From: Verrucomicrobiales bacterium
GTDB taxonomy: Bacteria > Verrucomicrobiota > Verrucomicrobiia > Limisphaerales > Palsa-1400
NCBI GenBank assembly: GCA_003140095.1
Contig: PLIU01000443.1
Coordinates: forward strand, 1-43,323
Reading direction: 5' to 3'
Length of the DNA: 43,323 nucleotides
A program made the position numbers and the translations under genes. The notes beneath the pieces are model-generated. The model was not told the origin of the DNA, made no database searches, and was given only the letters and a program-made list of their open reading frames with translations. The stretch's first letter is position 1; every line of letters begins with the position of its first letter. Below are positions 10,099 to 43,323 of this stretch, piece after piece.

Positions 10099-10195
10099 CC
10101 CTTTCTTCTGCCGGAAAGAAGAAAATCTGGTCCAAGGGTTCGACCAACGACCCCTCGCTTAGGATTGGTTTTTTTGTGCTTAAACCTCCATTTCC

Positions 10196-10225
10196 GGTTT
10201 GACTAGGTTTGACTGGGTTTGACTG
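10196..10225. repeat. Decamer array GGTTTGACTR x3
   Basis: GGTTTGACTA GGTTTGACTG GGTTTGACTG read directly. Confidence 0.85.
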
Positions 10226-10325
10226 CGCGGCTGTAACACCGCCTGATTTGCCTCTTCTTCCTTCCTCGTTCTGCCTTTGGTTTCGCCACCTGCACGCTCA
10301 TATTCGGCCTCCGCTCCATTCCGCA

Positions 10326-10395
10326 GGTTTGATTTGGTTTGATTTGGTTTGATTTGGTTTGATTCACCTTGATGAGCCTTGATCCAGCTTGATTG
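10326..10395. repeat. Decamer array, 7 phased units with TTGAT core
   Basis: GGTTTGATTT x3, GGTTTGATTC, ACCTTGATGA, GCCTTGATCC, AGCTTGATTG: TTGAT is at the same phase every 10 bp. Confidence 0.85.
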
Positions 10396-10576: not shown

Positions 10577-10738
10577 TCAGTCTCGTTTTTGGTTGTCGCC
10601 GCCAGCACCGCCTACGCTCCGGGCAGGCCCCTTGAGCCATTGCACCAATTCCTTTCCCTGCGGTCCCTTGGCCAGGTGGACATTTAAGTCCTCGCGCATC
10701 TTGCGCGGCAACCGGGCTCTTTTTCTCAGCCAGGTCAT
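10577..10738 (-). CDS. Small basic protein, family shared with the ORF at 43292
   Basis: MTWLRKRARLPRKMREDLNVHLAKGPQGKELVQWLKGPARSVGGAGGDNQKRD, preceded by AGGAGG 5 nt before the ATG. 40-nt leader and first codons align without gaps to 43252-43323. Confidence 0.65.
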   Translation of the reverse strand: MTWLRKRARLPRKMREDLNVHLAKGPQGKELVQWLKGPARSVGGAGGDNQKRD

Positions 10739-10962
10739 CGGAACCTCCTGATAATATGTCTCATGGCCACAACGTATCACAAATGCGGAGGCGTGGCTAG
10801 GGGCGCGGCGGCACCGATTGGCGAAGCGCGCCTGCCGCGTCGTCATCACCCCGCGACAATCGCCATCCTTGTGGTTCCTTTGATGACATTCCCTAATCGA
10901 GAGAGGGCTGTTCGGGGAATGGAACAGCATTCAGCATGAGCTTTCCTTGCATTTTTTTGCGA

Positions 10963-22777: not shown

Positions 22778-22888
22778 CGGGCTGGAGGCCTTCCCGAATC
22801 ATGATCGATTATCTCGAAAGCGCATCCGTCCCCTGTCGCGAACATTAGACTATCTTATTTTAAACCACGGGTCAAACCTCCTTGTATG

Positions 22889-23004
22889 GTCTGACTGGGT
22901 TTGACCGGGCGCGTTCCGCCGCCCCCTTTTCCTCATCGGATTGTCCAATTTCAGGACACGGCAACCGCCCCGCAGGTTTGATTTGGTTTGACTGGGTTTG
23001 ACTA
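22889..23004. repeat. Second locus of GGTTTGAYTK decamer arrays
   Basis: GGTCTGACTG GGTTTGACCG (22889-22908) and GGTTTGATTT GGTTTGACTG GGTTTGACTA (22975-23004), the latter preceded by CCGCA as at 10321-10325. Confidence 0.8.
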
Positions 23005-23540
23005 GCCGGGTCATTCGGGCCTGTTATGCGTGAAAACCACGCAATTCGCAACCCCTCCCCAACTATCTAAAGCCAAGGTGCGTGGATGAACAAACTTCGC
23101 CAACACATAAGCAATCCTAATCCACTTACATGCAGGCCAATCGTCCGGTACCCGCTCCTGCGGTTATCCTTGTCGAGGCCGCATTCGCGACTGCGAACTT
23201 TCAAAGAACAGGCGCGTGAGCGCCACACACACAGAACAATACTATGTTATGAAGGAAACGCAAAATGCGTTTTTGGACGGGCTTGATCCAGGCCGCAAAT
23301 GAGATTCTGAACCGCACTATTTTTGGACCCGACGCCCGGCGCACAAATCGAAATCTTGAAACCTGTGAACCTTGAATGGCATACGACTTCTCCTATCCGG
23401 CGCGCGCCACGAAAATGGCGAGCACAATCCTTTTCGGCGCCAATTTTTTCATGAGTCGATCATTCGTGCAGGAATTGCTTGAAAAACTCGGTTGCTCTCA
23501 ACCACTTTGCGCGGTATCATAATTCCAGAAAGATTCGTTT

Positions 23541-35235: not shown

Positions 35236-35435
35236 CTCGAAATTCCTCGAAAATTTTGGAATACCCAAAAATCTCGAAATTCCTCGAACATCCTAAAATT
35301 GGAAAACCCGGAAATAAGCGAAAATACCCATCCATTCCGCTATGTCGGCATATCATGGCAAATTCCTGTCCTTCCTCCGTCCTTAATAAATGAGATAAGT
35401 CATTCATAATCATAATTATAATCTTAATCATAATC
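35236..35435. repeat. Intergenic periodic tract: CTCGAAATTCCTCGAA x2 and ATAATC-type hexamers
   Basis: CTCGAAATTCCTCGAA at 35236-35251 and 35273-35288; ATAATC ATAATT ATAATC TTAATC ATAATC at 35406-35435. Confidence 0.7.
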
Positions 35436-35663
35436 TTCACCACATTCCACGCGGCTAAATCCCCGCCGAACCACATTCCGCTCCCGTGCAACTCCAAGAG
35501 TTGCCGGCAGGCGACTTTCCATTCTTTTCTTGCTTTCACTTTTTTCTTTCCTTCGTTACTCATATTTAATTTCAACTTTCGCGCCCAGTATGCGCCGCCA
35601 CCTTGGACATTGGCTGTCCAAGTGAATAACTTTCCGCGGGAAACCCACTTTTTTTACGTACGC

Positions 35664-43180: not shown

Positions 43181-43291
43181 GTTGCCGCGTGCTGAGTTGC
43201 GGCCTCATTCGATTGGTGGCGCCGCAGGTCTAGACGAACCACTGCTTTGGAGATACAATGTATCCATGAAAAGTATCCTAAGGGGGTCTGT

Positions 43292-43323
43292 ATGACCCGA
43301 CTGGGAAAGATAGCCAGGTTGCC
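43292..43323 (+). CDS. Start of small-protein family member (truncated by window end)
   Basis: MTRLGKIARL..., preceded by an AGGGGG SD-like sequence; leader and codons align with 10738 (minus). Confidence 0.6.
   Translation, partial: MTRLGKIARL

Follow-up and report, generated by a model that had tools for sequence, protein, structure and literature searches.

In the REP/RAYT systems, a gene family is flanked by short repeats that its product presumably handles, and many gene-less repeats are found elsewhere in the genome. In MITEs, internal deletions preserve the ends, and the gene-less copies exceed the coding ones. As for the small subunit of the terminase (TerS), phage satellites of the PICI/SaPI type carry one of their own, and satellite-encoded TerS proteins redirect packaging by the large subunit (TerL) of a phage. 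TerS proteins display their HTH motifs in a ring, and in SPP1 the direct repeats of pac span the terS promoter and the start of the gene (PMC4737164). For the DNA-binding domain of the SF6 phage TerS, the sequence specificity towards pac repeats was found to be low (PMC4737164), so that repeats near a terS gene need not be specific sites.

The window analyzed here, that is, the whole stretch of 43,323 nucleotides from a Verrucomicrobiales bacterium (genome G000, 7.8 Mb in 515 contigs, 89% complete), contains two copies of a gene start that an earlier note had described as a small-protein gene family with a conserved leader of equal length. Indeed, positions 10778-10707 of the minus strand and 43252-43323 of the plus strand align, as the note had stated, without gaps through the leader into the coding start; 51 of 72 nt are identical. 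Both parts align, but the leader is conserved less in this pair (25/40, counted by hand) than the coding start (26/32). It seems probable that these sequences derive from exapted phage TerS genes, which would have been dispersed in a MITE-like manner together with the cognate, helically phased arrays that their products presumably bind, and that what the window holds is a dead, truncated copy.

The first copy lies on the minus strand. Its 40-nt leader (10739-10778) comprises GATACG as a -10-like element, a 5'UTR and an AGGAGG Shine-Dalgarno (SD) sequence, and it precedes an ORF of 53 codons (10738 to 10580, the stop codon extending to 10577). The ORF had been taken for a complete copy; only codons 1 to ~38 (10738 to ~10625) correspond to the start of the TerS-like gene, and the homology to other copies ends after ...ELVQWLKG, the remainder being unrelated. 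Compared with the copy on contig C382, with which it shares 63% identity across residues 1-40, it gave a dN/dS of ~0.75 (dN 0.233, dS 0.309; few sites), versus 0.24 for the intact copies within G000. Judged by its homologs, the ORF is a truncated and decayed stump, apparently in near-neutral evolution, and the window contains no intact family copy. A repeat-associated small-protein family with a 53-aa product, as originally proposed, would agree with the open frame and its SD-like site, but homologs continue in frame beyond codon 38, the rest of the 53 residues is non-homologous and dN/dS is near neutral, so that this proposal has practically no chance of being right. The small-protein product was rejected because all other copies with enough sequence stay in frame far past codon 38, and full members of the family are TerS-like proteins of ~200-340 aa. 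Selection on the 53-aa frame was likewise unsupported, given the near-neutral value obtained against C382; the purifying selection that the note had named as support applies to the intact family members, not to this frame. The note had named, as a refutation, homology to nothing more than a decayed mobile element; this describes the present copy but not the family.

Downstream of the ORF, and on the same strand, array 1 (10326-10395) consists of seven phased 10-bp units, four of them AATCAAACCA and then three degenerate ones (AATCAAGCTG-like), and array 2 (10196-10225) consists of three units of AGTCAAACCN. They are followed by a 3' tail, GGAAATGGAGGTTTAAGCACAAAAAAACCAATCCTAAGCGAG (10152-10195), which is common, by eye, to the C382 and C450 copies. 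The repeat arrays reported downstream of this copy were thus borne out by a lag-10 self-match of 29/30 at 10325-10326, the maximum in 100 Markov shuffles being 21/30 over the whole window.

The second copy, on the plus strand, starts with a promoter-like TAGACG-17-TACAAT (43231-43259; 9/12 consensus matches, mean of 0.1 in shuffles) and its leader (together 43231-43291), followed by the first 11 TerS-like codons (43292-43323). The gene is interrupted there by a scaffold gap of three N and resumes beyond the window at C61:43328-43480, on the contig to which the window belongs, with residues ~64-114 of the same protein; the break is therefore a scaffold gap and not a biological one. Both leaders contain promoter-like and ribosome-binding-site-like sequences, and other copies present TTGACA-17-TAAACT (C45) or TTGACG-17-GATAAT, after which come an SD-like site and the ATG. 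In the first copy the -35 is degraded, and its -35 and -10 were assigned by homology to other copies, the promoter scan having called another pair there. The idea of a regulatory leader of its own holds insofar as a promoter and leader are present, but the leader is ordinary, consisting of the promoter, the 5'UTR and the SD-like site that belong to a duplicated gene, with no specially conserved element, and the equal length is explained by common descent.

That the unit is multi-copy, as had been suggested, was confirmed within G000, where 351 bp of the window copy, used as query in a nucleotide search, hit 18 places, ten of them with E ≤1.5e-15 (query locus included). Family matches in this genome number about 20 and are mostly fragments. 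The copies on C45, C107, C507 and C382 read MTRLGKIARLPRKLREELNVRLQNGE.GTELVEWLNGLAAVQKVLKARFEGRPISEQNLSEWKQGGYEDW... and reach the contig end or at least 143 codons. Damage takes several forms: a frameshift (C382), an in-frame TAG (C468), internal deletions that fuse the leader to late codons (C125, C248 and C450), and a gene cut short (C457 and C313). Many copies lie at contig ends, as expected of a repeat that breaks assemblies, and six contigs (C45, C61, C107, C289, C345 and C507) terminate within the TerS-like gene; therefore, the copy number is probably underestimated. In G000, the unit includes neither a transposase nor a terminase nuclease. A group II intron (RF02005) is located at L017:2594-2822, ~400 bp upstream of the C382 copy; it was the sole match in an Rfam search of leader and arrays, which returned no known RNA for them.

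On the basis of profile comparisons, the window genes belong to a family that is similar to the small subunit of terminases (phrog_426 and, weakly, Phage_Mu_Gp27). Full-length members in relatives have ~200-340 residues, and an alignment of 16 of them presents an N-terminal block reading GKIARLP..R..N...DG...I...L......NLS.WK.GGY.DW. The PHROGs profile phrog_426 (terminase small subunit) was matched by 13 of the 16 at E ≤0.01 (best 8.8e-9), and by the own-genome member with E 0.0016 across residues 1-141. The Pfam family PF11985 (Phage_Mu_Gp27) was matched by 8/16 at E ≤0.1 (best 5.7e-7), although every protein tested singly missed its gathering cut-off of 28 bits (best 27.0; L053 17.4) and the full-length sequence from G000 scored too low to be listed. 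A sequence search of the PDB gave nothing convincing, and tblastn against a phage collection yielded no match for either a solitary or a TerL-linked member. The family was detected in 47 of 292 genomes of the order (E ≤1e-6), several of which carry at least 11 copies; outside the order, a 390-genome sample of the phylum added only 12 other genomes, with one match each. Paralogs within a genome showed dN/dS values of 0.08-0.40 (NG86), indicating purifying selection on the intact members.

The 10-bp periodicity found beside the first copy turned out to be a property of the family. Around 87 distinct genes, self-matches were scored at lags 5-21 over a stretch that began 500 bp before the gene and ended 700 bp after it, and lag 10 stood out, with a mean best score of 20.4/30 versus 15.1, scores of at least 24 in 17 genes versus none, and scores of at least 20/30 in 56/87 genes versus 1/160, relative to 160 control regions that came from the same loci and were unmatched for intergenic position. 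Apart from the multiples 20 and 21, no other period was prominent. TerL-linked genes provide a fairer control, and here an array accompanied 58 of the 75 genes without TerL, as against 5 of the 19 linked to it (Fisher p 5.7e-5). The same was observed outside the order, where arrays accompany both genes that have no obvious TerL (L174 and L182, from another class of the phylum) and none of the ten TerL-linked genes. The 10-bp array is, therefore, a regular companion of the TerS-like genes that lack a large terminase; in G220 and G237 it consists of 2-7 units placed directly after the stop codon. The units themselves vary (AATCAAACCA, AATCCGACCT, ATTACGGCTA, AATATCACCA, AATTAAACCA and CTTTCCGCGG, among others), and they differ even between paralogs of one genome (G005 and G013). 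Similar proteins tend to have similar units (Mantel r 0.57, p 0.0002; 28 genomes, one gene each), a covariation that linked inheritance alone may produce and that does not prove a co-evolving specificity.

These data bear on the notion of passive hitchhikers, in which a decayed MITE- or retroelement-like repeat would be moved by an unrelated trans-acting enzyme and the arrays would be roleless products of replication slippage. The internal deletions that keep leader and array (C125, C248, C450, C457 and C313), a unit number that varies at the right end and the group II intron near the C382 copy all fit such a scenario. Yet the 10-bp period is strict despite unrelated units and lineages, even in another class (L174 and L182), and the gene is under purifying selection, which makes the scenario very unlikely.

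Solitary and TerL-adjacent members are co-linear, the C-terminus included, and one of the TerL partners passed the PF03237/Terminase_6N cut-off. No TerL lies beside the window copies, and a search of G000 for the L134-type TerL and for Terminase_6N found neither, so that neither these copies nor this genome offer the adjacent or co-encoded TerL that defines a functional phage terminase. TerL was present at only 19 of the family loci examined, and over 60 loci it was the only recurrent phage-type neighbor (five loci, once followed by a portal-like ORF). At L138, TerS and TerL are accompanied by a portal-like ORF, and L134 and L149 are isolated TerS-TerL pairs with 10-bp arrays amid cellular genes, without other evident phage genes.

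The cassettes could in principle be minimal packaging parasites or transduction cassettes, in which an infecting phage would have its TerL redirected by the solitary TerS, so that host DNA would be packaged from the array, acting as pac. The co-linearity of the C-terminal segment with that of TerL-linked TerS, the overlap of the SPP1 pac direct repeats with the terS promoter and gene start (PMC4737164), and the isolated pairs with arrays at L134 and L149 point in this direction. However, the Terminase_6N TerL was not detected in five genomes (G000, G144, G126, G077 and G055), although the controls were positive, and the TerL-adjacent TerS genes are mostly devoid of arrays; both facts weaken the packaging version, which also leaves the spread inside one chromosome unexplained. 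We consider it unlikely.

Arrays are by no means confined to the vicinity of genes. Allowing one mismatch, AATCAAACCAAATCAAACC has 429 matches in G000 and its reversed control none, while the exact 19-mer AATCAAACC occurs in 5/196 genomes of the order, all five of them carrying the gene family. At the same tolerance, the array motif was matched 69 times in G220 and 39 times in G237, and not at all or a few times in most other family-bearing genomes, whose arrays are made of other units. At 20 sampled array loci of G000, the array was preceded either by the gene leader with the gene in decay or by a non-coding leader of a second conserved kind, GTGTGCGGCGCTCAGGCGCCTGTTCTTTGAAAATTTGCAG. Derivatives that are gene-less or decayed and keep leader and array outnumber the gene-bearing copies, and most of the 429 matches lie in such derivatives. 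In G220 and G237, the homology of most copy pairs ends at the last unit, which gives these copies a sharp right end, and the left end is variable.

Two further elements of this sort are found in the window, both on the minus strand. The one at 22870-23240 bears an array at 22975-23003 (GGTTTGATTTGGTTTGACTGGGTTTGACT) and a class-B non-coding leader at ~23190-23235, with a hairpin GGCGCTC..GCGCC and GTTCTTTGAAAnTTnGCAG, that is common to at least five other G000 loci. The one at 35380-35625 has a palindromic promoter, CTTGGACAGCCAATGTCCAAG (35602-35622), and remnants in common with other G000 copies; the palindrome is followed by a conserved decayed sequence, TTGGAGTTGCACGGGAGCGGAATG... (~35380-35600), also present in at least five other places of this genome, while the palindrome in its exact form was found in only 4 of 196 genomes of the order, all with the TerS-like family. 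In G005 and G003, the palindromic promoter CTTGGACAGCC..TGTCCAAG stands before genes of the family or before arrays without a gene, and the units vary between them; here, too, the exact palindrome is limited to 4/196 genomes of the order, all family-bearing.

A dispersal of this extent could also be read as the domestication, in the manner of RAYT/REP, of an exapted regulator or chromosome organizer, the protein being a DNA-binding factor that acts globally or regulates its own expression, with the dispersed arrays as its operators. Purifying selection on the gene, the palindromic promoter before several members (in those four family-bearing genomes only) and the hundreds of arrays in G000 would be in keeping with this. 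Nevertheless, the family is missing from most genomes of the order, the units differ among paralogs of one genome, and the many decayed copies are expected of parasites and not of regulators, so that a regulatory role appears improbable.

The observations can be integrated by returning to the reading of exapted TerS genes with cognate arrays. The cassette has the order promoter and leader, gene for a TerS-like (Mu Gp27-type) putative DNA-binding protein, and array of direct repeats with a 10-bp period. If ring-forming TerS is taken as the model, the solitary protein would bind and wrap its own array with HTH domains placed one helical turn apart, and repeats one helical turn apart would suit a ring or wrapped HTH assembly. 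The array would act as a pac-like or iteron-like binding site, and the cassette and its gene-less derivatives may persist as a selfish MITE-like family, self-regulating or self-propagating through the protein-array pair. The left ends of the cassettes are not sharply defined, and neither target-site duplications nor empty sites were found that would prove a transposition. A bolder version, which we consider less likely than not, holds that an orphan TerS has co-evolved with a helically phased 10-bp binding array, with a repeat code of its own in each gene lineage, and that it multiplies within a single bacterial order, both as autonomous cassettes and as MITE-like derivatives, in a function other than packaging, thereby representing a new class of chromosomal element.

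If the favored reading is right, a viral genome-recognition protein has repeatedly become a chromosomal repeat-binding protein with matching arrays, and dozens of natural pairs of protein and 10-bp box would be available for studying the disputed question of how phased DNA is read by TerS rings. It would also add a possible new selfish repeat system to REP/RAYT, and the cassette would account for the repeat that breaks the assemblies of G000. The protein family is already known; the architecture of the cassette and the way it has proliferated seem not to have been described before, since the literature searched (with incomplete coverage) does not report a combination of solitary TerS genes and phased arrays.

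When compared with the known systems, the family shares with REP/RAYT the gene with flanking repeats and the many gene-less repeats in the genome, but the gene is TerS-like, without a Y1/HUH transposase, and the repeats are tandem, phased direct 10-mers instead of hairpin REPs. As in MITEs, deletions keep the ends of the cassette and gene-less copies are more numerous than coding ones, although neither terminal inverted repeats nor target-site duplications nor a cognate transposase were identified for it. With PICI/SaPI it has in common a TerS separated from TerL and, possibly, a recognition site of its own; unlike them, the unit lacks integrase, replication or capsid-redirecting genes and exists in many copies per genome. 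In the protein itself, the likeness is to phage TerS (phrog_426; PF11985), with a co-linear N-terminal HTH-like region, helical middle and C-terminal motif, whereas most of the family members stand alone, lacking TerL and other phage genes, and the family is multi-copy and under the Pfam cut-off. Finally, the proximity of direct repeats to the gene recalls SPP1 pac (PMC4737164), but the repeats of this family follow a strict 10-bp period, are built of lineage-specific units and are dispersed by the hundreds in one genome.
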